Assembly: GCA_029232285.1 (NCBI GenBank) | Contig: JAOXFI010000047.1 | Span: 28,932-92,931, forward strand | DNA length: 64,000 nt | Direction of reading: 5' to 3' | Origin: Agmasoma carcini (nom. nud.) | Lineage: Eukaryota; Microsporidia; Thelohaniidae | In this document: positions 1,561-62,036 of the stretch, piece after piece | Position numbering within the stretch: position 1 is the first letter of the stretch | How the letters are laid out: the number at the start of each line of letters is the position of its first letter | Position numbers and translations under genes: made by a program | Notes under the pieces: generated by a model | Database searches by the model: none | The model's input: the letters and a program-made list of their open reading frames with translations, nothing else | What the model was told of the DNA's origin: nothing

Positions 1561-3019
1561 ATTTACTAAAAATCAATGAGGTAGCGATTCTCTTAACCAT
1601 AAAGAAAATAGATAATTTGATAAATTTTGTTCTAAATGCTGTAATGATAGAATCTATCGAATGAAATACTAAAATCTCGGTACACAATCATGAACAAAAT
1701 GATAATAAAACAAGGCTAAACTTGCAAAACTATTGAAGCGCATCTAACAACAGTTACTAAAGGTATCTAAGACGATATATTAAAATCAATGAAAAATATT
1801 ATTTGGCGTTTAATAAATAAAAAATCTTTTCATATTTCATCTAAGATGAAAAAGATATTTTTATTAATGATAGAGAGTGCTTTTTAATTTGTATAATTGA
1901 GATTCAGAAGATAAAACAGACATAAACCCAAATATATTTATTCAATTAGTATTAATACACGGGTGTATATTTGTCAATCATATCCTTTTATTCAAAAAAA
2001 AACTGCCTATCGGGCTGCATTTGAACGACCTGTTAAAAATATAATTGTTGATTTTAAAAATGCTTGCAAAACAATGTTTATATATTCATAGATTAATGGG
2101 TACATTTTTAACAAAATATTTAATGAAGGATTCAATGTATTAAAAATTTAAGTTTTTATAATATATATTTTGTAAAAATTGAGAATTTTATTTATCATTC
2201 CAACAATGTCATATTTTTTATTAAAGAAATGACTGACAAGGTGGATTTACTATCAGTACTGTGTCAGATATAATAGAAAGTATCAAGATAAGGACACAGC
2301 AAATTGAAAATGGGTTTGGGTTTAAATGTATAATCAATTCACAATTATCTTAATATAGAAAGATTAAAGAGTGTGTTGTCGTTCGTAAATCGTATTGAAT
2401 ATGAAAACATTTAAACGAATAGAGGTAGAAATATTATAATAATAATATATCATCATTTGAATGTTTGTAAACAATAAACGACAATTCTGCTGGCGAAGAG
2501 CATCTACATCGCTAAAACATAGCCATCTTGAACTAACAGCTAAACACATTGGTGGTTAAGTTTGGTTTTAGTATTGTTTTGGATCAAATAGTATTTAAAA
2601 CTAGTAAAAGGTTAATATATCAATATCAATATGTTAATATGTGGTTATAAAAATATTTTTTAACAAGACTAAGCACACTTCTAAATTGAGAAGCTCAAAT
2701 GACTAGCACAATCACTTCATTTAACTCAATTGATGATCTTTGTTCATTTGTGGTCAAAAAACACAAGGTTTTAGAGCTAAAAAAGATATTGTTAACAATG
2801 GCAAGAAGCATGAAATCAAGGTGTATTGATTGTATCAGACAATAGATGGATATACTAAACATTATATTAATTTTCAAACTAAGTATATATCATAAAAACC
2901 CAAATATAATTATACACATCATTCAAAATATTTAAAAATAAAATTTATCTTGTTTTTCTGGTTTTCCCAATACTGTATATGAACAAAAATATTTTATACT
3001 TTGTATACCCATCTTTTGC

Positions 3020-3800
3020 TTTATGATGATCAAGTATCTTGTTTTTAATATTAATATTAGTTTTTAGCTAATTTTGCTTGATTATGACCAAAAATTTCAA
3101 TTGGATTTAAATCCGGTGATTATGGAAATTATTTAGATGTTTATGAGGCAAAATAAGAAATTGAATATTATGCTGAGAAAATGGGGTTTCTAAATTATAT
3201 TTTTATAGATTCAACCAAATATTCTGTTAAAACACCCAAATATTAATATGATCTTTTTCTTATTAGTTTTAATATTATTCTTCTTACACCTCTCTAACTA
3301 AAAAACCCATACCAAATTTAACTGTTGAAATAAAATTTTGTGATTTCTCTAAACTTACTCCAAATATCGTTCATTAAATAAATTAACTTGACAGAACGAG
3401 GTTTCATATTAAATATCACGTTTTTCAGTAATTTTTCTTGTAATAAATCCATCTTTCATATATCAAACTAATTTTTACGTAAAAGATTTATTATTGTGAT
3501 TTTTTAAATACCACAAATGCTAATAATGATATTTTTAAAATTTAATATTATGTTATTTATGACTTTTTGTGCTCACCGATAAACTTTGAAATGTTACATT
3601 GCCTTGTTTTCTATGTATACTATTGTTTATTCCCGTTTTTGAAATATTCCTTATCGTAGACTTTGGTTTGTCTATTTTTGTTGTAATTGAACTAAAGGTG
3701 TAGCCTTGATTCAGATAAGAAATAATACAATCCTTATCAAATTCATAAATATGATTAAAATTACAATTTTAATATTTCTTTGTGCTATTTTCCTTTGACA
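3020..3800 (-). pseudogene. Decayed Tc1/mariner-type transposase
   Basis: No long frame survives, but reading the minus strand piecewise gives a helix-turn-helix-like N-terminal part (about 3790-3590), a run of middle fragments, and the family hallmark SPDLNPIE at about 3119-3096. The Tc1/mariner/IS630 superfamily uses a DDE/D catalytic domain that ends with this LNPIE motif. Several stops and frameshifts separate the pieces, so it cannot be active. The 5' and 3' ends of the original element are not recognisable. Confidence 0.7.
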
Positions 3801-8007: not shown

Positions 8008-9612
8008 TTACGACTTTATTTTATCAAGTTTTGCAAACAATTCTCGTCTTTCTTTGCTTTGGGGGTGAATATTTCTTACAACAGCCCTCATCTCTTCTGG
8101 TGAAATAATATTAAGATTAGTCTTAAATAACCTCTCAAGCTCATCAAATGATGATTTAAGAGCATTAGTAAGCAATACCAACTTTTCATAATTACCTATA
8201 CCCTCAGAGTCATACCCATATGATAAATCTAACAAATAATTAGATATATCATACAATTTATCAACCTTATCACCATCAAACTTAGAAGGTACAACAATAA
8301 AATCAATATATCTAGAGAATAAGGACTCAAAAAACTTACCAAGAAATAAATCAAGGGATGTTACATCAATAAAAAGGTCAATATTTTCAAGAAATTCATA
8401 GTGAAGCTGTTTGATATGTGCCTTTATAAACATAACATCATCATTTAAATTAATATTTAAGTTTGTAGAAGCCTTTATAAGTTTGGTAAAAAGAGCATTT
8501 CTACTATCAGATAAGCTATCATAGTCAGAACAATCTTTATTCGTCCTTATATAGGTTGATAGATCTGCATATTTAACAAATAAATCATAAGGAATTGATA
8601 ATTGATCGTAGCTAAAGAATTTGATCAAGCTGCTTCTAAATATTTTTAATGCTTCAGCCTTTTTTTCAGATTTTATTGGGTGCAAAAGTTTTTTAGCCTT
8701 AATTAAAAGATCAAAATTCTTACTTATATGCTTTTTTTCAACTCTTATGACCTCACCAGACTCTTTTACCTTAGAAATATCAACAACACTGTTCATTATA
8801 ATATTGAGAGCCCATCGATCAACGTTATTTATATAAAAATCAGTTTTAGTGAAAAAATGATTATTTTCTCTTAAAGTTTCCATAGAATATTCATTTTTGA
8901 TAAACAAAGTCCCCATATTTATTTTTAGACCATGTAAGATTGAATTTGTGGTTATAGGGGTGGCTTTTAAAATATCACTCAGGGTAGAAACATTTAACTT
9001 TTCAGTGATGATATTGCTGGTATCTGTACTTGTGGAAGGTTGAACCAAATAAAAGTGATTTTCACCAGTGAAAACTTCAGTCTCTGTAGCAATATCAAGC
9101 AGACGCTTACCAACTATGTATTTAAATTCATTGATTAAACCTGTATATGTAGATTTTTCTTTTATAAAACTAAGAAATTTTTCAATGTCGTTGTGAATCC
9201 TTAGAATGTTAAAATATTCTCCTTTTAGTTCTAAATTAGCTACTTTTAATACTTCTGAGCTTTTCTGGACGAAAAACAAAACGAGAGACCTTAAAAATAC
9301 CTTTGATTTCTCAATCAGAACATTATCATCATCTACAGTCTCATACAATCTATATAAATCATCCAAACATAAGCAAGAACCAGAAACAACTTCTTTATAT
9401 TCAATTTCTCTACATATTTGACTATACTCTGCTTCTAATTCATCAATTCGCTTTTTTAGGGTAAGCCTATCTAAGCTGTTTTTTTCTCTCTTTAAGTCAG
9501 ATATTTCAGTAGACAAGCTATTTATTAAGCTCTTGTTGTTATAATATTTCAAAGATAGCTCAGTTAAGTCCTTTAACTTACCACATAGTTCATTTATACG
9601 CTCTGCTGACAT
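8008..9612 (-). CDS. Probable vesicle-tethering protein, ZW10/Dsl1-like
   Basis: A 534-residue, mostly alpha-helical protein. Residues 1-75 form a charged coiled coil (KLKDLTELSLKYYNNKS, EISDLKREKNSLDRL), followed by helical bundles without membrane segments. The last 40 residues (LNIISPEEMRAVVRNIHP followed by a charged R/E/L helix) resemble the C-terminal end of ZW10/Dsl1/RINT1-type subunits, where a final S/T-P-E-E helix and an R-x-L pattern close the tethering rod. Such proteins belong to the CATCHR group that captures Golgi-derived vesicles at the endoplasmic reticulum. The match is weak; an exocyst or COG subunit is possible. The start ATG follows AAAATTTTTAACCAAA, a typical context for this genome. 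Confidence 0.4.
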   Translation of the reverse strand: MSAERINELCGKLKDLTELSLKYYNNKSLINSLSTEISDLKREKNSLDRLTLKKRIDELEAEYSQICREIEYKEVVSGSCLCLDDLYRLYETVDDDNVLIEKSKVFLRSLVLFFVQKSSEVLKVANLELKGEYFNILRIHNDIEKFLSFIKEKSTYTGLINEFKYIVGKRLLDIATETEVFTGENHFYLVQPSTSTDTSNIITEKLNVSTLSDILKATPITTNSILHGLKINMGTLFIKNEYSMETLRENNHFFTKTDFYINNVDRWALNIIMNSVVDISKVKESGEVIRVEKKHISKNFDLLIKAKKLLHPIKSEKKAEALKIFRSSLIKFFSYDQLSIPYDLFVKYADLSTYIRTNKDCSDYDSLSDSRNALFTKLIKASTNLNINLNDDVMFIKAHIKQLHYEFLENIDLFIDVTSLDLFLGKFFESLFSRYIDFIVVPSKFDGDKVDKLYDISNYLLDLSYGYDSEGIGNYEKLVLLTNALKSSFDELERLFKTNLNIISPEEMRAVVRNIHPQSKERRELFAKLDKIKS

Positions 9613-9877
9613 TTTGGTTAAAAATTTTTAGGTCAAAACATTTGAATAAAAATACACAAAGTTTATCAAAATAATATTCTATAACTGCTATATATAACTA
9701 ATGGTTAAGTCTAATGATGAATTGTAAATACAACTATTGCATATATTCAGCATCTAAGACATAGATTAAGCAGTAATATAAAAGATCAATAAAATAATAA
9801 CGGTAAAACCAAGAACTCCTGAAATAAATTAATTCAGCTTCTTAAACAAATATAAATTAAAAAAATTAATATAAAAG

Positions 9878-10031
9878 TTGGGTGCAGAGAGTAAGCCTCA
9901 TCATGTTGGGTAGATCGATACCTAACAGCATTGAACTATTTTTAGGAGAAACATTCCAATTATGGGTGCCTTTCAGCTATTTCCGAGGACTTTCCTTAGA
10001 GCGTGCTCCAATGCTGTTCTTCTGCCCAAGC
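9878..10031 (-). ncRNA. RNase P or RNase MRP RNA candidate (compact)
   Basis: A GC-richer island between two minus-strand genes. Read on the minus strand it has the RNase P/MRP core in the right order. P1: TTGGGCAGA (10029-10021) with TCTGCACCCAA (9888-9878), with a two-base bulge. P2: AACAGCATTG (10018-10009) with CAATGCTGTT (9933-9924), ten perfect pairs. A small GAGC..CTC hairpin sits at the P3 position. CR-I is GGAAAGTCCTC (9995-9985); its AAG-U-CCTC pairs with GAGGCTT (9899-9893) of CR-V, leaving the universally conserved bulged U of P4. P2 and P4 form the expected pseudoknot. A GGTA/TACC hairpin (9922-9909) between the P2 and P4 3' strands resembles P19. A T-rich stretch follows the 3' end, suiting Pol III. 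At about 154 nt it is unusually short. P versus MRP cannot be settled by eye. Confidence 0.72.
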
Positions 10032-10073: not shown

Positions 10074-10844
10074 TTACAATACTAAGTACATAGACAGCAG
10101 CGATTCCATTGCACTGGATAATACCTTTGGACTGCTATTCAGTTTAGAGTTCCTTCCTGATGTAAGACCACTTGAACTTTGTTGAACGATCTCACCTGGT
10201 TTATATCCGTCTAGGCAATCTGATAATGTTACGAATTCATAATTTTTATCTTTAATCACATTTATAATCTCCTCTAAGTTATCATCTTCAACTAATCGTT
10301 GTTCATATAAAGAAATTATAAACGAATCTTGATGGTAATATGAAGGAGACAAGAATTCTTCAATACTCTCAACTGGGTCTACATCTGGCTGGTCGTGAGG
10401 ACAGAAACTATAGGCTGTTTGTACTATTCCATTCTCTTTAAAGAAGTCATATACTACCTCCACAGGCATGCTTTCATCAAGAGGCGAACGAGCGAATCTT
10501 ATAGGCATACCTATTTTATCTTCTAAATACTTAATTTGATTATCCAAATCGTCTGCCACCATTGAACCATCATCCTCCTCATTGTAATTTCTTTTAGGGC
10601 TTGTCCTGAATCCAATATCATGATTGTATTGACTTGAAGCAGCAAACGTTCTGCTAACTGTAGGGCCTCTTACATTGGTGTTAAAGTGAAATGTTGCTGG
10701 TATATCTTTTTCTTCTAGAAGTTGCATTAGTGATTCTGTATCTGAGGTTGGTCCTTCATCGATGGTTAAAGCTACCACCCCAGACCTTAGACATGTTTCT
10801 GGAAGATTATAAGATTGCGCTAAAACGAATTGGAATAATAACAT
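10074..10844 (-). CDS. Polysaccharide (chitin) deacetylase-like protein
   Basis: A 256-residue protein with a short hydrophobic leader (MLLFQFVLAQ) that looks like a signal peptide, then a NodB-homology/carbohydrate esterase 4 domain (about 20-215). Motif 1 is present as TIDEGP (about 27-32) in place of the usual TFDDGP; the metal-site HxxxH of motif 2 is reduced to NHDIGFRTS, keeping the first His but with Arg where the second would be. The RSP-type motif 3 is visible as FARSPLDES. The Ser-rich tail ends in a weak hydrophobic stretch, possibly for a GPI anchor. Microsporidian homologues are spore-wall/plasma-membrane proteins; the altered metal ligands suggest weak or no catalysis. The TTG two codons upstream is not used; the ATG follows CAAATTTGCCC. 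Confidence 0.82.
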   Translation of the reverse strand: MLLFQFVLAQSYNLPETCLRSGVVALTIDEGPTSDTESLMQLLEEKDIPATFHFNTNVRGPTVSRTFAASSQYNHDIGFRTSPKRNYNEEDDGSMVADDLDNQIKYLEDKIGMPIRFARSPLDESMPVEVVYDFFKENGIVQTAYSFCPHDQPDVDPVESIEEFLSPSYYHQDSFIISLYEQRLVEDDNLEEIINVIKDKNYEFVTLSDCLDGYKPGEIVQQSSSGLTSGRNSKLNSSPKVLSSAMESLLSMYLVL

Positions 10845-10949
10845 GGGCAAATTTGTATTTCTACTTTAATAATACAAAATTTATATTAAAAAAACAATAA
10901 AATATTTTTTTTTGATGGTTTTTTTAATTTCTAATTTATTAAAATAGCT

Positions 10950-11576
10950 CTAATTCTTTAAATTTTCATAAATATCAGTTTCGTATATTTTGTTAATGCT
11001 TTTGACAAGATAAAAAAGGTCTGTATCAGATTTTTCACCGTAGAATGGTTGTATTTTTATCAAATATTCAGCCCAATCATCAGTATAACAATCACAATCA
11101 TCAATTATTATTACTTTTTCTCTATTACATGATAATGATTCTAAACACTTAAGATATCCATTTGCAGTTCTAAAGCAATGATCCCTATGAAATATATTTT
11201 TGATAACTTTATTTTTATCAATGACCTTTAAAATATCATAAGCATATTTCCTTGTGGCAGCTGTATAGACTATTATGTCAAATTTTTTACTTAACTCTTG
11301 TAAAAAATATTCTAAAAATGGTCTTACCACAACACGCCTTGGATAAGTTTTATCTCCGATCTTAAAATCAAATATTTTACAGTCTCTGGCAGAATATATC
11401 AATGTATTATCTAAGTCTAATACTAGTAATGGTTTTATGGGTGATATTATCTCTATATTAGGCTTATCAGTTCTTTCTATATGGGTAGTACCCCTAATAC
11501 GAAAATTTAATCCAAACATACTTAAAAACAATATGAATGACATAGTATTATGTAATTTCTTAAGTAGCCAGAACAT
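10950..11576 (-). CDS. Membrane-anchored FCP1/SCP-like phosphatase, copy 1
   Basis: A 208-residue HAD-superfamily phosphatase of the FCP1/SCP/NIF group. After a hydrophobic N-terminal segment (about 12-24, anchor or signal peptide) comes the catalytic motif DLDNTLI (Asp54/Asp56), motif II in VYTAATRK, and the lysine-containing KVIIIDDCDC motif III. Family members dephosphorylate Ser/Thr of proteins; membrane-anchored ones (Nem1/Dullard type) act at the nuclear envelope/ER on lipin, soluble ones on the RNA polymerase II tail. The anchor here favours the former, with low certainty. The start could be the ATG at 11543, which aligns with the start of the second copy at 16125. The central 412 bp are identical to that copy while flanks are only about 80% alike. 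Confidence 0.85.
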   Translation of the reverse strand: MFWLLKKLHNTMSFILFLSMFGLNFRIRGTTHIERTDKPNIEIISPIKPLLVLDLDNTLIYSARDCKIFDFKIGDKTYPRRVVVRPFLEYFLQELSKKFDIIVYTAATRKYAYDILKVIDKNKVIKNIFHRDHCFRTANGYLKCLESLSCNREKVIIIDDCDCYTDDWAEYLIKIQPFYGEKSDTDLFYLVKSINKIYETDIYENLKN

Positions 11577-15504: not shown

Positions 15505-16125
15505 TTAAATTCGTATATCATTAAAATGGCTGTAATTTTTAAAATTTTCATAATCATCGGTTTCGTATATTTCGTTAATGGTTTTGATAAGGTGAAAGAG
15601 GTCTGTGTCGGACTGTTTACCATAGAATGGTCGTATTTTTATCAAACATTCAGCATAGCCACCAATATAGCACTCACAATCATCAATTATTATTACTTTT
15701 TCTCTATTACATGATAATGATTCTAAACACTTAAGATATCCATTTGCAGTTCTAAAGCAATGATCCCTATGAAATATATTTTTGATAACTTTATTTTTAT
15801 CAATGACCTTTAAAATATCATAAGCATATTTCCTTGTGGCAGCTGTATAGACTATTATGTCAAATTTTTTACTTAACTCTTGTAAAAAATATTCTAAAAA
15901 TGGTCTTACCACAACACGCCTTGGATAAGTTTTATCTCCGATCTTAAAATCAAATATTTTACAGTCTCTGGCAGAATATATCAATGTATTATCTAAGTCT
16001 AATACTAGTAATGGTTTTATGGGTGATATTATCTCTATATTAGGCTTATCAGTTCTTTCTATATGGGTAGTACCCCTAATACGAACATATGATCCAAACA
16101 TACTTAAAAAGAAGATAAATAACAT
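15505..16125 (-). CDS. Membrane-anchored FCP1/SCP-like phosphatase, copy 2
   Basis: A 206-residue paralogue of the phosphatase at 10950-11576 with the same HAD motifs (DLDNTLI with Asp43/Asp45, VYTAATRK, KVIIIDDCEC) and a hydrophobic N-terminus (MLFIFFLSMFG). The nucleotide sequence 15674-16085 equals 11092-11503 without a difference, whereas the C-terminal third and N-terminal leader are diverged. This implies gene conversion between the two, or a very recent partial duplication. Both copies keep open frames and all catalytic residues, so both are probably functional. No AAAATTT block is seen immediately ahead of this ATG. Confidence 0.83.
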   Translation of the reverse strand: MLFIFFLSMFGSYVRIRGTTHIERTDKPNIEIISPIKPLLVLDLDNTLIYSARDCKIFDFKIGDKTYPRRVVVRPFLEYFLQELSKKFDIIVYTAATRKYAYDILKVIDKNKVIKNIFHRDHCFRTANGYLKCLESLSCNREKVIIIDDCECYIGGYAECLIKIRPFYGKQSDTDLFHLIKTINEIYETDDYENFKNYSHFNDIRI

Positions 16126-17241: not shown

Positions 17242-18843
17242 TTATTTTTTTATCATTGCCTCAACAAAGCAACAAATAATCTTATCCACATCACCAGGCC
17301 TACTGTGTAGCTCTGGATGGTACTGTGTTCCAACATAGAATGGGTGATCTTCTAATTTGAAGATAACTATTCTACTCTTGTCGGTTCTTCCATAAAACTT
17401 AAGACCATGTTCTTCAAGTTGATCTCTATATTTTGTATTTAGTGCATATCTGTGTCTAAACTTCTGTGTAGTCACCTCATCCCCATATATCTCCTTTCTT
17501 GGAACCCCAATATAATTAACAGGATAGCTTCCAAGATAAATATCACGGTTCGTGTTCTCACATTTTATACCATCAATCATATTAATAACAGGATACTTAG
17601 TCTCTCCAAATTCCGTTGAAGTTGCTCCTTTCATATTCAAAACATTTCTAGCAAACTCAATAACACTAATTTGGAAGCCTAAACATATTCCCATGAATGG
17701 AATGTTGTTCTTACGGGCATATTCAGCCACAGCGACCTTTCCATCCACACCAGCATTCCCAAATCCACCAGGTATTAAAATACCATTTAAGTTTTTAAGA
17801 TTATCAAAATTGCCCTTTTCTACTTCATAGTAATTAATATATTCTATTTCAATCTCGTGATTTTGAGATTTTGATGCCATTAGAAGTGCCTCTTCTACGG
17901 CTAAATATGGTTCATTTCTTTTATCATACCTACTAACGATACCAACCTTTATCTTTGAATTAAACTTTTTTGTAAGGCCTTCAAACTTTTGAACCAAGTG
18001 ATATTGTTTAGATCTATCTTGAAGCTTTAATTGTTCTAAGATATGTTGTTCAATACCTGATTGTTCATAGTAGCAAGGAATATCATAAACATTATCACTA
18101 GTATATGATTGGACGAGATATTTTGCATCACAGAGCAGCGTCATGTCCTTTTTATCTTCTTCTGACATTGTTTCTTTATGTTTGAACACAACAATGTCAG
18201 CCTTTAAAGAGTTAACTTTAAGTTTCTTAATTGAATCATCCTTCACTTGTAACTTCCAATTAGCATCCAAATTTGTAAAGTCTTCACACATAACGACAGA
18301 GTAATCATTTCTGTCAAGTGTGTTTACGAAATATGAAAGAGAGTTAATGATATACTTACTCTCATCATCACTAATAGAGCCACCCAGTTCGACAATCATG
18401 GTTTCTGGACTCTCTTCAACCGTCTTACCATCAATAAATCGATTAACACTGCTATTGGAAGCATCCAAAATCTTGTCGATTAAAATTTTCTTATAAGTAT
18501 CATCAAATCTGATACTCTGACCGTTATATCCAGTTTTATCTTCGGAATAGATGGTATCTAGCATAAGATTTCCTCCTGTAATTGTGTTTTTCTTGGATAG
18601 TACAAGATCACAGAATCTTTCAAATGATCCCAAATCAAGATCAGTTTCTGTACCATCATCTAATACATAAGTTTCGCCATGCTCTTCTGGAGACATCTTG
18701 CCGGCATTTCTATTTAAGTATGAATCAATCTTTAAGAATGATACATTGATGCCGTGTGATTGTAGCAAAGCTCCTACGCTTGCTGAGAGTTTTCCTTTAC
18801 CAGAGTTCGAAGCATCACCTCCAAATACAAAAACGTATTTCAT
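17242..18843 (-). CDS. CTP synthase
   Basis: A 533-residue CTP synthase, making CTP from UTP, ATP and glutamine in the cytosol. The synthetase domain (about 1-275) shows KIDSYLN, MSPEEHGE and DDGTETDLDLG, the Mg/UTP-binding region. The glutamine amidotransferase domain (about 298-533) has PGGFG, nucleophile Cys387 in GICLGFQ and the HPE pair His509/Glu511, so the catalytic triad is complete. Oddity: the first loop, normally GGVVSGLGKG, reads GGDASNSGKG, keeping only the GKG end. Length is near the family norm (about 530-590). The start ATG follows AAAAAATTTACCCTTA, the start-proximal signal. The gene is isolated by more than 1 kb each side. Confidence 0.97.
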   Translation of the reverse strand: MKYVFVFGGDASNSGKGKLSASVGALLQSHGINVSFLKIDSYLNRNAGKMSPEEHGETYVLDDGTETDLDLGSFERFCDLVLSKKNTITGGNLMLDTIYSEDKTGYNGQSIRFDDTYKKILIDKILDASNSSVNRFIDGKTVEESPETMIVELGGSISDDESKYIINSLSYFVNTLDRNDYSVVMCEDFTNLDANWKLQVKDDSIKKLKVNSLKADIVVFKHKETMSEEDKKDMTLLCDAKYLVQSYTSDNVYDIPCYYEQSGIEQHILEQLKLQDRSKQYHLVQKFEGLTKKFNSKIKVGIVSRYDKRNEPYLAVEEALLMASKSQNHEIEIEYINYYEVEKGNFDNLKNLNGILIPGGFGNAGVDGKVAVAEYARKNNIPFMGICLGFQISVIEFARNVLNMKGATSTEFGETKYPVINMIDGIKCENTNRDIYLGSYPVNYIGVPRKEIYGDEVTTQKFRHRYALNTKYRDQLEEHGLKFYGRTDKSRIVIFKLEDHPFYVGTQYHPELHSRPGDVDKIICCFVEAMIKK

Positions 18844-20498: not shown

Positions 20499-21662
20499 AT
20501 GACTTACAGAAATAACCAAAAATTGATAAAACATATTTCTATGGGCTTAGCAGCCGAGAAGCTAAAAATATCGTTAAAAGACTTTACAAAGCTTACAGTA
20601 CTACTCTCTGTATATCCTATAATAGCTGAAGATAAAAAAACATGCTATGGTAGAAAATTAGCCAAAGATTTCCACTACAAAGTTACCGACATTCAAAATA
20701 TTTACGATTCTGAAGAATATGATAAGCTAAGAATAAACAAAGCCCTACAAAAGAAGAGAGAAGCCCTAAAATTCTATAAACAAGAAGTCAAAGCTTCCAA
20801 TATTAAAGATAAGAAATATAAATATATTTCTCTTATAAAAAATAAGTACAAATCATTCGGTGATTGCTTAAATGATTTAGGTAACTCTATAAAGGATATA
20901 TACTTGGTTAGCGCACTTAAAATTGATGAGGTGGACGAATGTATTGAAAATTTTGAAAAATTTGTTTATGAAAACAAATTATTGGAGTATGCTTTTCTTT
21001 CAAAGAAAGGAATTTATTTTTCAATGAAATTTGAAAAGATACGCGTGTTCTGGCTAAAGCCATATCCTGGTTACAACCTAGAAGATTTTGTTGTAGAGAA
21101 GAAAGAAGTAATTAAGAAGGTTAAATATAAGTTAGACTTCTTAGAATGGTTGGATGATGATGAATCAGATGAAGAAGTTGTGAATGAAGATAGCAAGCTT
21201 GACATATCAATATTGAAATATAGTTCTCCTATACTACAGGCTCATTTATCAACATCCCTACATAAGCTAAATCAACTTTATCCGAATGGGTTTGATATGA
21301 AAGGCACAATATTTGATGGACTTAAATGTTTTGTAGATATTAAGACTATAAAAAAGGAAATTGAATTTGTATTGAAAAACGAGAATGCGAATATTGTTAC
21401 ATGCGAAGAAGCTAGTGTTGTCTTTACTGAGACAGTTATTGATAAGAGGGAGGGTGTAGAGTATGTACATCCTCAATATGTATTTGATTCTCTTAATAAA
21501 GGTGAGTTATTAGATAAGGCGCTTTATTATGTTGGTAAAACGATTCCTGAACATCTATCACCTTTCCCAGATGTAATGGATGTAGCTAAATGTCCTGAAT
21601 TTGGTATGTTATCAAGTACGAAGAAATATAGAATTTTGGATAAAGTTCAGAAGTTAAATTAA
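20499..21662 (+). CDS. PES1: Pescadillo homologue, 60S ribosome biogenesis
   Basis: A 387-residue protein of the Pescadillo/Nop7 family, which with Erb1 and Ytm1 processes pre-rRNA of the large ribosomal subunit in the nucleolus. The N-terminal Pescadillo domain (about 1-200) includes the RNNQALKKL-like opening (RNNQKLIKHI) and the ISLKDFTKLTVLLSVYP segment. A single BRCT domain (about 280-350) follows an acidic linker (DDDESDEEVVNEDS) and contains VEYVHPQYVFDSLN; HLSPF lies near the C-terminus, as in the family. It is shorter than yeast Nop7 (about 600) because the C-terminal acidic/basic tail is missing. The ATG follows AAATTTTTTAAAAAAATTCCCA. Confidence 0.92.
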   Translation: MTYRNNQKLIKHISMGLAAEKLKISLKDFTKLTVLLSVYPIIAEDKKTCYGRKLAKDFHYKVTDIQNIYDSEEYDKLRINKALQKKREALKFYKQEVKASNIKDKKYKYISLIKNKYKSFGDCLNDLGNSIKDIYLVSALKIDEVDECIENFEKFVYENKLLEYAFLSKKGIYFSMKFEKIRVFWLKPYPGYNLEDFVVEKKEVIKKVKYKLDFLEWLDDDESDEEVVNEDSKLDISILKYSSPILQAHLSTSLHKLNQLYPNGFDMKGTIFDGLKCFVDIKTIKKEIEFVLKNENANIVTCEEASVVFTETVIDKREGVEYVHPQYVFDSLNKGELLDKALYYVGKTIPEHLSPFPDVMDVAKCPEFGMLSSTKKYRILDKVQKLN

Positions 21663-21836: not shown

Positions 21837-21909
21837 GCTCTGATAGCTCAGTCGGTAGAGCGTTGTGCTAATAACGCAAAGGTCTCGGGTTCGAACCCCG
21901 GTCAGAGCA
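21837..21909 (+). tRNA. tRNA-Ile, anticodon AAU
   Basis: A 73-nt cloverleaf: acceptor GCTCTGA/TCAGAGC with discriminator A, D-stem GCTC/GAGC, anticodon stem TTGTG/CGCAA with loop CTAATAA (anticodon AAT at 21870-21872), T-stem around GGTTCGAACCCC. The A-box and B-box are intact and there is no intron. A TTTTTTT run about 8 bases downstream serves as the Pol III terminator. The first anticodon A would be read as inosine. Confidence 0.97.
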
Positions 21910-50515: not shown

Positions 50516-51706
50516 TTAATTTCTATAAAGAAACATTCTTTCTGGAATTAAAAACAATTGATAAGAACCCATTTTAAAAAAATTGATTGGATTAATCGTG
50601 CACAGCACCTTATTGTTTTCATAGTAGCACACACCTATCTTAACCACACTTTTGATTTTCATTTGTATTGATCTAGTGCTATGATATAGCGAATAGTATT
50701 TGCCATCTTTTTCCATTATTACTATAAATAGTTCTTGTACATCCTTATCATCAAAATTTAAATATACTAAAAGTTTTAGATTTACCAAATTTTCATAAGT
50801 CTTTCTACTTTTGATTTCAAAAGTTCCCACATAGCCTTGACCAAATATAAATGGATCTAGATAATATTTTTGCTGAAAATAAGCACTATACTCTTGAAAA
50901 CTTTGCCACATTGGTGTGTCTTTAATATGATAAGTAAACATAGATATAAACAAATTGATATATTCATCATTAAGATCAATTTGACATTTTACTATGTCTA
51001 CTATGAATTGTAATTCTGATCTTAACCAATTTAAAATCTTTAATTTTATAAAATTATTAAACCCATTGCTTATAATACAAAAATCACTAATTTTATCCCA
51101 ACAAACCATATAATTGATGTATATCGTAGGACCACCCATAGTAGCTAAATCATATTCCATTTTATAGACAAAAAGAAGCAATATATAATTATCTCTAAGC
51201 TCATGTCTTTCATGAGAATTCAAAATGTTCTGCATGTGATTATCAACCTCATCATTATTTATTTTAAAACTCAGTCCATGCAACCTTTTGATCATTTTAA
51301 TTTTCAAATTCATAAAAAGGGGATTTATTTGATAGTCACTATGAAATTTATTTTTACTTTCTACAGACTTCATAGCTATATAATTTGAATGCTTAGAATA
51401 CTTAAATAATTCGAGTATAAGGTGTTCTTTGCATATATATCCATTAATTTTAGACTTATTATGCTTTATAACGCCTTTATTAAAGGCTGCACCTGTTTTT
51501 ATTCCCTGAAAGAAGCTTGGATGTATAAAAAAACGAGTTGATGGATCGAAGAAACGACCAGAACATAAAAGGCACATCTCGAATCCTTGTATTACATGTG
51601 GTCTAATATTGTTATCATCTTTTATAACGTTCTCTACTGCAGTTGAAACACTTAAAAGGAAGATGTTAATAAATTTACATAAAAGACTCATAGCCATGAA
51701 CTTCAT
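50516..51706 (-). CDS. Secreted multigene-family protein, copy 1
   Basis: A 396-residue protein I do not recognise, one of three paralogues in this window. The N-terminus (MKFMAMSLLCKFINIFLLSV, about 1-21) is a likely signal peptide, with cleavage near VSTAVE. A strongly conserved segment follows, MCLLCSGRFFDPSTRFFIHP (C45, C48), then ICKEH (C92, H95); this CxxC...CxxH pair could hold a zinc ion. A helical middle with SHERHELRDNYILLLFVYKM and a C-terminal beta-rich region (KYYSLYHS, KIGVCYYENNKVL, FFKMGSYQLFLIPERMFLYRN) are shared by all copies. No membrane span besides the leader. The start follows CAAAAATTTACT. Probably exported to the spore or host interface; function unknown. Confidence 0.85.
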   Translation of the reverse strand: MKFMAMSLLCKFINIFLLSVSTAVENVIKDDNNIRPHVIQGFEMCLLCSGRFFDPSTRFFIHPSFFQGIKTGAAFNKGVIKHNKSKINGYICKEHLILELFKYSKHSNYIAMKSVESKNKFHSDYQINPLFMNLKIKMIKRLHGLSFKINNDEVDNHMQNILNSHERHELRDNYILLLFVYKMEYDLATMGGPTIYINYMVCWDKISDFCIISNGFNNFIKLKILNWLRSELQFIVDIVKCQIDLNDEYINLFISMFTYHIKDTPMWQSFQEYSAYFQQKYYLDPFIFGQGYVGTFEIKSRKTYENLVNLKLLVYLNFDDKDVQELFIVIMEKDGKYYSLYHSTRSIQMKIKSVVKIGVCYYENNKVLCTINPINFFKMGSYQLFLIPERMFLYRN

Positions 51707-54423: not shown

Positions 54424-55614
54424 TTAATTCCTATAAAGAAACATTTTTTCTGGTACTAAAAACAATTGATAAGAACCCATTTTAAAAAAATTGATTGGTT
54501 CAATCGAGTATATCACCTTATTGTTTTCATAGTAGCACACACCTATCTTAACCACACTTTTGATTTTAATTTGTTTTGATCGAATGGTATGATATAGCGA
54601 ATAATATTTGTCTTCTTTCTCCATTATTACTATAAATGGTTCTGGTATACTCTTATCATCAAAATTTAAATATACTAAAAGTTTTGGACTTACTAAATGA
54701 TCATAAGTCCTTCTACCTTTTATTTTAAAGGTTTCTGCATAGCCCTGACCAAATATTAAAGGATCTAGATAATATTTTTGCTGAGAATAAGCACTATACT
54801 CTTGAAAATTTTGCCACATTGGTGTGTCTTTAATATGATTAGTAAACATAGATATAAACAACTTAATATATTCATCATTAAGATCAACCTTGTATTTCAT
54901 TATGTCTACTATGAATTGTAATTCAGATCTTAACCAATTTAAAATCCTTAATTTTACAAACTCGGTAAAATCACAGCTTGCTTTACAAAAATCATTAATT
55001 CTATCCCAAAAAATTATATAATTGATATATACGGTAGGTCCACTCACAGTATCTAAATCATATTCCATTTTATATACAAAAAGAAGTAATATATAATTAT
55101 CTCTAAGCTCTTGTCTTTCATGAGAACTCAAAATGTTCTGTATATGATGATCAATTTCATTATTGTTTATTATAAAACACTGACCATAGAAATTTTTGAT
55201 CATATTAATTTTCAAATTCATAAAAATGGGTTTTGTTAGATAATCATTGTAAAATTTACTTTTACTTTCTATAGAATTCACATCTATACAATTTGACTTT
55301 TTAAAATATTTGAATAATTTGAGTATTAGGTGTTCTTTGCATATATATACTTTTATTTCAGGTTCATTATGCTTTAAAACGCCATCATCGAAGTTAGAAC
55401 CCATTTTTACTTTCTTAAAGAAACTTGGATGTATAAAAAAACGAATTGATGGATCGAAGAAACGACCAGAACATAAAAGGCACATATCGAATCCCTGCAT
55501 TGCACATGGTTCAGCCTTGTTATCATCTTTTACAACGTTCTCTACTGCAGTTGAAACACTTAAAAGGAAGATGTTAATAAATTTACACAAAAGATTCACA
55601 GCCATGAACTTCAT
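54424..55614 (-). CDS. Secreted multigene-family protein, copy 2
   Basis: A 396-residue paralogue of 50516-51706, identical in length. It has the signal-peptide leader (MKFMAVNLLCKFINIFLLSV), MCLLCSGRFFDPSIRFFIHP (C45, C48), ICKEHLILKLFKYF (C92, H95), SHERQELRDNYILLLFVYKM, and the C-terminal KIGVCYYENNKVIYSIEP and MGSYQLFLVPEKMFLYRN. Differences cluster in residues 64-90 and 110-150 and around 205-240, whereas the Cys segments and the C-terminus are nearly invariant. This suggests purifying selection on the core and faster change in exposed segments. Frame intact and the start signal CAAAAATTTACT conserved, so probably functional. Confidence 0.85.
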   Translation of the reverse strand: MKFMAVNLLCKFINIFLLSVSTAVENVVKDDNKAEPCAMQGFDMCLLCSGRFFDPSIRFFIHPSFFKKVKMGSNFDDGVLKHNEPEIKVYICKEHLILKLFKYFKKSNCIDVNSIESKSKFYNDYLTKPIFMNLKINMIKNFYGQCFIINNNEIDHHIQNILSSHERQELRDNYILLLFVYKMEYDLDTVSGPTVYINYIIFWDRINDFCKASCDFTEFVKLRILNWLRSELQFIVDIMKYKVDLNDEYIKLFISMFTNHIKDTPMWQNFQEYSAYSQQKYYLDPLIFGQGYAETFKIKGRRTYDHLVSPKLLVYLNFDDKSIPEPFIVIMEKEDKYYSLYHTIRSKQIKIKSVVKIGVCYYENNKVIYSIEPINFFKMGSYQLFLVPEKMFLYRN

Positions 55615-60848: not shown

Positions 60849-62036
60849 TTATTCAGTTCTATGAAAAAACATTATTTCTGGTACTAAAAACAATTTATAA
60901 GAACCCGATTTAAAAAAATTGAATGGATCAATCGTGTATATCACCTTGTTTTTTTCATAGTAGCACACACCTATCTTAATCACATTTCTGATTTTAATTT
61001 GTTTTGATCGAATGGTATGATATAGCGAATAATATTTGTCATCTCTTTCCATTATTACTATAAATGGTTCTGGTATACCCTTATCATCAGAATTTAAATA
61101 TACTAAAAGTTTTGGGCCTACTAAATGGTTATAAGTCTTTTTGCTTTTGATTTTAAAGGTTTCCACATAGCTTTGATTAAATATAAATGGATCTAGATAA
61201 CAGTTCTGCTGAAAAAAGGCAGTATACTCTTGAAAACTTTGCCACATTGGTGTGTCTTTAATATGATTAGTAAACATAGATATAAACAACTTAATATATT
61301 CATCATTAAGATCAATTTGACATTTCACCATGTTCACTATGAATTGTAATTCTGACCTTAACCAATTTAAAATCTTTGGTTCTACAAAATCAATAAACAC
61401 ACGATTCACAGTAGAAACCTCAATAATTCTATCCCAACATATTATATAATTGATGTAGACTGTTGGAAATTCCATTATAGCTAAATCATATTCCATTTTA
61501 TATACAAAAAGAAGTAATATATAATTATCTCTAAGCTCTTTTCTTTCATGAGAACTCAAAATATTTTCCATGTGATTATCAATCTCATCATTATCTATTC
61601 TAAAACTCTGGCCATATAACTTTTTGATCGTTATAATTTTTAAATTCATAAAAGTGGGATTTATTTGGTAATCACAATGAAATTTACTTTTACTTTCTAT
61701 AGACTTCATAATTTTATATTCTGAATTATTAAAATACTTAAATAATTCGAGTATAAGGTGTTCTTTGCATATATGTCCACTTATTTCGGATTTATTATGC
61801 TTTACAGCCCCTTCATTGAAAGCAGCACCAATTTTTATTTTCTTAAAGAAACCTGGATGTATAAAAAAACGAATTGATGGATCAAAGAAACGACCAGAAC
61901 ATAAAAGGCACATCTGAAAACCCTGTATTATTTGTGGTTCAACTCTGTTATCGTCTTTTACAACGTTCTCGACCGTAGTTGAAACATTTAAAATATAAAT
62001 AAGCTTACATAATAAATTCAAATTCATGAAATTCAT
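60849..62036 (-). CDS. Secreted multigene-family protein, copy 3
   Basis: A 395-residue paralogue of the 396-residue proteins at 50.5 and 54.4 kb. The leader MNFMNLNLLCKLIYILNVST is shorter by two residues but still hydrophobic. Conserved parts: MCLLCSGRFFDPSIRFFIHP, HICKEHLILELFKYF, SHERKELRDNYILLLFVYKM, KDTPMWQSFQEYTAFFQQ and KIGVCYYEKNKVIYTIDP, ending SYKLFLVPEIMFFHRTE. The CxxC/CxxH residues are all kept. Unlike copies 1 and 2, the immediate start context is T-rich (AAAAAAAATAT) without the standard AAAATTT block. The frame is intact. Upstream 370 bp are related to those of copy 1. Confidence 0.85.
   Translation of the reverse strand: MNFMNLNLLCKLIYILNVSTTVENVVKDDNRVEPQIIQGFQMCLLCSGRFFDPSIRFFIHPGFFKKIKIGAAFNEGAVKHNKSEISGHICKEHLILELFKYFNNSEYKIMKSIESKSKFHCDYQINPTFMNLKIITIKKLYGQSFRIDNDEIDNHMENILSSHERKELRDNYILLLFVYKMEYDLAIMEFPTVYINYIICWDRIIEVSTVNRVFIDFVEPKILNWLRSELQFIVNMVKCQIDLNDEYIKLFISMFTNHIKDTPMWQSFQEYTAFFQQNCYLDPFIFNQSYVETFKIKSKKTYNHLVGPKLLVYLNSDDKGIPEPFIVIMERDDKYYSLYHTIRSKQIKIRNVIKIGVCYYEKNKVIYTIDPFNFFKSGSYKLFLVPEIMFFHRTE

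Follow-up and report, generated by a model that had tools for sequence, protein, structure and literature searches.

With high confidence, the RNA element described here is a single-copy gene for the RNA subunit of RNase MRP, and most likely a microsporidian one. RNase MRP RNA is a catalytic RNA that helps to cut ribosomal RNA precursors. The gene lies on the minus strand of the window, the stretch of 64,000 nucleotides analysed in this work, and the decisive evidence for it is the covariance model, in which conserved sequence and structure are scored jointly. The Rfam model RNase_MRP (RF00030) covered positions 9877-10031 over its whole length (model positions 1-266 of 266) with 44.6 bits and an E value of 1.5e-11 when 501 bases were scanned, and with an E value of 5.8e-12 when 191 bases were scanned. 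In the genome-wide search (4,263,419 bases, 69 contigs) the E value was 3.1e-11, and the element was the only match at E <= 0.001. An earlier, sequence-only reading had proposed an RNA of the RNase P/MRP family at this place and had left the choice between the two enzymes to the Rfam models; the full-length match bore out the family, and the choice resolved to MRP. The same reading had regarded a second, canonical RNA for each enzyme elsewhere, with no transcription at this place, as evidence against it; no second MRP RNA was found genome-wide at E <= 0.001, and the RNase P RNA is encoded separately.

Although RNase_MRP was the best family on the minus strand, the score lay below the gathering score of 50 of RF00030, so that the match was seen only with an E-value threshold, and an Rfam scan of the window at the gathering level returned the tRNA only and no MRP element. 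In the Rfam scan of the element, the tool suppressed a further match from that clan, which had a lower score. The shortfall from the gathering score is most simply attributed to the reduced size of the RNA, in which many model positions are replaced by few nucleotides. The alignment showed 33 model positions of P3 replaced by 2 nucleotides, and beyond P8 16 positions replaced by 7 nucleotides and 72 positions by 5. These 72 positions belong to the CR-II/CR-III region, where the 501-base scan left 5 nucleotides and the 191-base scan left 7. Of the pairs in the Rfam alignment, four were non-standard: two lie in P19, and P1 and P8 have one each. The CR-I sequence GGAAAGUCC and the CR-V sequence GGCUUA of the element agreed with the MRP consensus.

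At the sequence level the catalytic core of P/MRP RNAs is complete, consisting of P1, P2, P4 (CR-I/CR-V with the bulged U), CR-IV, and P19 (Table 1), and every pair of the drawn structure was standard in the pair check. P1, P2, CR-I, CR-V, and the P19-like hairpin all lie where the sequence-only reading had placed them on the minus strand (9878-10031), and the pairing of CR-I with CR-V that it had described is present as a P4 of seven pairs with U43 bulged. Its view that P3 is almost absent was not upheld, as UUGGAG-CACG-CUCUAA (9996-10011) forms a plain P3 of 6 bp with a loop of 4 nucleotides. This P3 has no internal loop and no distal helix (P3b).

Table 1. Features of the RNase MRP RNA gene in the window; nucleotide (nt) numbers are those of the RNA, with nt 1 at window position 10031 on the minus strand
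Feature	Position	Strand	Basis and remarks
RNase MRP RNA gene, 155 nt	9877..10031	minus	RF00030 model 1-266
P1 5' strand, UUGGGCAGA	10021..10029	minus	9 pairs, 2-nt bulge on 3' side
P1 3' strand, UCUGCACCCAA	9878..9888	minus	P1 = nt 3-11/144-154
P2 core 5' strand AACAGC	10013..10018	minus	6 pairs, Rfam alignment; nt 14-19/103-108
P2 core 3' strand GCUGUU	9924..9929	minus	pairs with 10013-10018
P3 hairpin, 6 bp, loop CACG	9996..10011	minus	Rfam alignment and pair check; nt 21-26/31-36
CR-I GGAAAGUCC	9987..9995	minus	sequence and Rfam alignment; nt 37-45
P4 5' side AAG-U-CCUC, bulged U 9989	9985..9992	minus	nt 40-42 and 44-47
P4 3' side GAGGCUU	9893..9899	minus	nt 133-139; all P4 pairs standard
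CR-V GAGGCUUA	9892..9899	minus	sequence and Rfam alignment; region about nt 131-142
P5 5' strand GGA adjoining P4	9982..9984	minus	pairs with UCC 9945-9947; nt 48-50/85-87
P8 hairpin GCU-GAAA-GGC	9968..9977	minus	sequence; nt 55-57/62-64
P9-like hairpin CCA-UAAU-UGG	9956..9965	minus	MFE fold and pair check; nt 67-69/74-76
CR-IV block AGUUCAAU	9930..9937	minus	Rfam alignment with 'au' as insertion; nt 95-102
P19-like hairpin, 4 bp, 6-nt loop	9909..9922	minus	fold; Rfam also puts P19 there; nt 110-113/120-123
TTTT directly 3' of RNA	9873..9876	minus	sequence

The helices outside this core are short. P5, which was recognised with the help of PMC13184271, has 3 bp, and a helix of this length is weak as evidence alone. 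P8 carries the GARA(R) sequence GAAAG at 9970-9974 on a stem of 2-3 bp, and its loop is either a GAAA tetraloop closed by a U-G pair or a hexaloop, not a clean GARAR pentaloop; GARA variants of the GARAR loop are reported in PMC1796607. In the MFE fold, where a pseudoknot cannot be represented, the P8 bases fell into another helix with nt 79-86. Beyond P8 there is one 3-bp hairpin only, for which the labels P9 and P10 are not separable. P10 is said to be present in every MRP RNA characterised (PMC1796607); it is not clearly present in this one.

The ten perfect P2 pairs of the sequence-only reading can be drawn between nt 14-23 and nt 99-108, and the last three 5' bases of this 10-bp P2 are the first three bases of P3. 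Fold energies of the possible boundaries were computed without the pseudoknot for structures that include P1, P5, P8, P9, and P19. They were -26.5 kcal/mol for P2 of 6 bp with P3 of 6 bp, -27.2 kcal/mol for 7 and 6 bp, -27.7 kcal/mol for 8 and 5 bp, and -25.2 kcal/mol for a 10-bp P2 with no P3; the lowest value, -29.4 kcal/mol, belonged to P2 of 10 bp with P3 of 3 bp, which is nearest to the earlier drawing. The four structures that contain P3 fell within 3 kcal/mol, and the energies do not discriminate among them. The shorter P2 was preferred on account of the Rfam alignment and of the parallel in the RNase P RNA of the same genome, in which P2 is followed by one A, a 5-bp P3, and then A and GGAAGG (by eye).

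This nuclear RNase P RNA was found on another contig at G000:C67:5377-5581 (L002:1501-1705, minus strand), with 76.5 bits against a gathering score of 28 (RF00009), and has 205 nucleotides as matched. It contains the sequences AGAAAU and UUGGAAA, which we take to be of the CR-II and CR-III type, and its CR-I (GGAAGGUCU) and CR-V (UCAGACU) are of the RNase P type. By eye, its P1 can be extended on both sides by complementary flanks. The two RNAs are alike in the order of the core and in the short P3 without an internal loop, which is a hairpin of 5 bp in the RNase P RNA, and the neighbourhood of CR-IV is near-identical in both; they differ in length, in the CR-II/CR-III-type sequences, and in the type of CR-I and CR-V.

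Structure-based computation is reported to separate P from MRP RNAs poorly in general (PMC11507696), and the element could in principle be a second RNase P RNA that has lost its specificity domain and processes pre-tRNA. The length and type of its CR-IV (7 of 8 positions against the Rfam RNase P consensus), its resemblance to the RNase P RNA of the genome over one segment (15 of 17), and the GAAA found by eye in P8 of both RNAs would suit such an RNA. Nevertheless, the best Rfam family was MRP, and RF00009, with E up to 10, hit the other locus only and not the element (15 of the 50 first-look candidates were scored). The assignment to MRP and not to P follows from the separate RNase P RNA elsewhere in the genome, which is a full one, and from the MRP-type CR-I and CR-V together with the lack of room for a CR-II/CR-III domain; P5 adjoins P4, and no other MRP RNA was found at E <= 0.001. 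A second RNase P RNA is thus very unlikely. It is slightly less probable still that the element is a decayed, non-functional copy whose working gene lies in unassembled DNA. The score below the gathering threshold, the four non-standard pairs of the Rfam alignment, and the reduced P8 and P9 could be taken as signs of decay, and part of the genome may be absent from the assembly: the microsporidian Rfam SSU model detected no SSU rRNA in it (5 of 64 candidates scored), the universal pattern of the SSU 3' end gave no match in the whole assembly at <= 2 mismatches, and the rDNA may be missing from it. Against decay stand the standard pairs throughout the drawn structure, the intact catalytic motifs, and a G+C island that stands out sharply and is followed by a terminator-like T-run, whereas in a genome of 27% G+C the composition of a pseudogene would be expected to move towards A+T.

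The possibility that an intergenic spacer resembles an MRP RNA by chance was weighed by counting how often the pairing pattern occurs in the window and in random copies made as first-order Markov resamples of it. The descriptor asked for P4 with its bulge, for a P2 of 6 bp that crosses it, and for a P1 of 4 bp around both. With ...AA.T as the anchor, the window contained 1073 matches and 4 random copies averaged 1123; with ...AA.TCC as the anchor, the window contained 3 matches, and 40 copies averaged 3.4 with a maximum of 9. The pairing pattern alone is worthless as evidence against chance. With the CR-I pattern G.AAA.TCC there was 1 match against a mean of 0.275 (maximum 1) in 40 copies, and with GGAAAGTCC there was 1 match against 0 in 40 copies. 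The stability of the plain fold was not above that of shuffled sequences (z -0.95; 30 of 200 shuffles were at least as stable). The G+C content is a signal independent of the covariance model: the element has 45% G+C against 26.9% for the window, a value equalled or exceeded by 1 of 63,845 segments of 155 nucleotides, and the flanks have 0% in the 42 nucleotides upstream and 20% in the 264 nucleotides downstream. Common as the pairing is, the genome-wide E value, the match over the full model length, the coincidence of motifs and pairing, and this G+C island make chance a negligible explanation, and the element is read as the RNase MRP RNA gene. Elsewhere, 25 pattern matches for a short MRP RNA (1 on viral contigs and 3 more there with a second pattern; 21 on genome contigs) were treated as chance, none of the 25 being RNase P/MRP at the Rfam gathering level; this result is weak evidence, because the gathering threshold is silent on the MRP element of the window too.

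The gene sits in an intergenic interval of 461 nucleotides between two minus-strand ORFs. One of them encodes a polysaccharide deacetylase (10074-10850); the other (8008-9612) encodes 534 amino acids, had no Pfam match, and had no relatives at E 0.001 among 7992 scored candidates. The 42 nucleotides directly upstream of the RNA are pure A/T, and the TTTT directly downstream is likely to be an RNA polymerase III terminator. On the plus strand at 9706-9763 there was a SNORD34-like match of 19.3 bits (gathering score 38, E 0.55), which is most likely chance.

Several other features of the window were observed. Two NIF/CTD-phosphatase-like genes on the minus strand (10950-11576 and 15505-16125) share 177 of 197 aligned residues, with complete identity over a long middle stretch and lower identity at the ends, a distribution that suggests recent duplication or conversion. 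A CTP synthase is encoded at 17245-18843. Among the best 120 of 6363 hits to it, the top 11 proteins had 34-44% identity, those of Vairimorpha bombi (36%) and Vittaforma corneae (42% over 76% of the query) stood lower, that of Astathelohania contejeani (35%) came a little further down, and bacterial relatives, for example from Clostridium, scored equally well. The three species named are microsporidia. The size of the genome, its compactness, and the reduction of the RNA are in keeping with a microsporidian. A Pescadillo homologue (20499-21662, plus strand), for which the search gave 6 related proteins, lies 174 nucleotides upstream of a tRNA for Ile with the anticodon AAT (21837-21909, plus strand), which was the sole tRNA detected in the window. 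Three paralogous ORFs of 395-396 amino acids without Pfam match (50516-51706, 54424-55614, and 60849-62036, minus strand) form a local gene family, the second and third having 74% and 71% identity to the first. At another locus, L034:743-1195 and 2052-3044, a homeodomain ORF stands beside separate transposase-like ORFs, in which an HTH match was below the cut-off and a DDE_3 match just above it.

The protein subunits were sought in the same genome. Pop1 was present as a frame of 367 amino acids with POP1_N and POPLD, and Pop4/Rpp29, Rpp1/Rpp30, Pop5/Rpp14, and a single protein with the Rpr2/Rpp21/Snm1 domain were found as well, all over the Pfam cut-offs. Neither PF12328 (Rpp20/Pop7) nor PF01918 (Alba, to which Rpp25 belongs) gave a candidate genome-wide; the control genomes for these models were prokaryotic and say nothing about how the models perform on microsporidia. 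A NEPRO_N match in a frame of 110 amino acids was not accepted as an MRP-specific protein (18.4 bits, below the cut-off of 24.9; E 0.003). In yeast, P3 is the binding site of Pop6 and Pop7, which also help to engage Pop1 (PMC7351766). Pop6 has been traced within fungi only, and microsporidia are reported to keep about half of the ribosome-biogenesis factors (PMC3919561). That both RNAs have lost the P3 internal loop is coherent with the finding of no Pop6/Pop7-type protein, a non-detection that is weak evidence because these proteins are small and divergent.

According to PMC13184271, P4/P5 and CR-IV of MRP form a cradle, the P8 loop packs against P4, and the substrate, a single-stranded RNA, is anchored by CR-IV at the nucleotide two before the cut. 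By analogy, the MRP RNA of this genome would be made by RNA polymerase III with its end at the T-run and would assemble with Pop1, Pop4, Pop5, Rpp1, and the Rpr2/Snm1-type protein, perhaps without a Pop6/Pop7 platform. The enzyme would then act on the pre-rRNA near the SSU-LSU spacer, where metal-ion catalysis at P4 would cut a single-stranded site, and CR-IV would place the nucleotide two before the cut on a minimal scaffold. Some microsporidia are stated to be without ITS2 (PMC1796607), and the same paper cites, by title, a study arguing against full ITS1 excision in E. cuniculi.

The CR-IV part of the active-site region, judged by its sequence, looks more like that of RNase P. From A1-G2 to the P2 core, CR-IV of the MRP RNA is AGUUCAAU, which has eight nucleotides when P2 has 6 or 7 bp, and CR-IV of the RNase P RNA of the same genome is AGUCGAAU, also of eight nucleotides. 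A 2026 study gave CR-IV a strict length, six nucleotides in every MRP RNA and eight in those of RNase P (PMC13184271); the word 'microsporid' is absent from its main text. Compared with the Rfam RNase P consensus AGUGCAAU, AGUUCAAU agreed at 7 of 8 positions, and compared with the MRP consensus AGUUAU at 4 of 6 positions without gaps. When two inner nucleotides were dropped, AGUUAU resulted exactly, so that the block is equally an MRP CR-IV with a two-nucleotide insertion. With a P2 of 8 bp, CR-IV has six nucleotides (AGUUCA) and its conserved A7 is replaced by C; a longer P2 could remove the conflict with the six-nucleotide rule. In PMC1796607 the CR-IV motif is placed 0-3 nucleotides before P2, and in sea urchin it overlaps P2 and extends beyond it, a range which implies that some variation in the spacing had been noticed by earlier authors. 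No eight-nucleotide MRP CR-IV was found in the open-licence literature, searched mostly through titles and abstracts.

The best ungapped similarity between the MRP RNA and the RNase P RNA of this genome was the CR-IV segment, and its 15 of 17 identities were matched by 0 of 300 random copies at a mismatch score of -1 and by 3 of 300 at -2. Gene conversion is regarded as a possibility rather than a conclusion, since the segment includes bases that are conserved in both families anyway. Tentatively, and with rather more doubt than belief, it may be proposed that the MRP RNA has a P-type CR-IV of eight nucleotides (A1 G2 U3 U4 C5 A6 A7 U8), which would be almost identical to the CR-IV of the RNase P RNA in this genome. 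This would be a natural CR-IV swap and, if both RNAs have also lost the P3/Pop6/Pop7 platform, a partial re-convergence of P and MRP.

Whatever the status of CR-IV, the element belongs to a kind of RNA that is already known, since short microsporidian MRP RNAs without P3b have been reported. Those of Nosema locustae and Encephalitozoon cuniculi were called the shortest known (PMC3228867), P3b and P6 are stated to be absent in microsporidia (PMC1796607), and these RNAs, as reported, share the core of the element. Belkorchia et al. (2017; cited in PMC6461891) described a minimal set of microsporidian ncRNAs. It is plausible that the 155-nucleotide element is among the shortest MRP RNAs and yet ordinary for a microsporidian. 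The MRP RNA of Giardia intestinalis, as given in PMC3228867, is likewise short and has a P3 without an internal loop; it comes from a different lineage and has 189 nucleotides by its coordinates (781009-781197). With MRP RNAs in general (RF00030; human RMRP, yeast NME1) the element shares P1, P2, P4 with the bulged U, CR-I, CR-V, the 3-bp P5 adjoining P4, and P19, and its short P8 has the GARA(R) sequence, though not as a clean pentaloop. In contrast to them, P3b is missing, little of the domain beyond P8 is left, and CR-IV up to the P2 core is two nucleotides longer if P2 has 6 or 7 bp.

The MRP and P RNAs of this very reduced genome, both with a short P3 and with no detected Pop7/Rpp20 or Alba/Rpp25, offer a natural test of the minimum of RNA and protein that these enzymes need. 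When the CR-IV swap was built in human cells, unprocessed ITS1 and pre-tRNA accumulated (PMC13184271); a P-type CR-IV in an MRP RNA, if true, would be the natural version of that experiment and would break the rule that CR-IV of MRP always has six nucleotides. The re-convergence of P and MRP, if real, would perhaps be tied to a minimal or changed spacer substrate where ITS2 is missing. Should the eight-nucleotide CR-IV hold in relatives, a difference between P and MRP that has been stated as universal would be challenged, and 'anchor-substrate matching' would become testable by comparison across the microsporidia.
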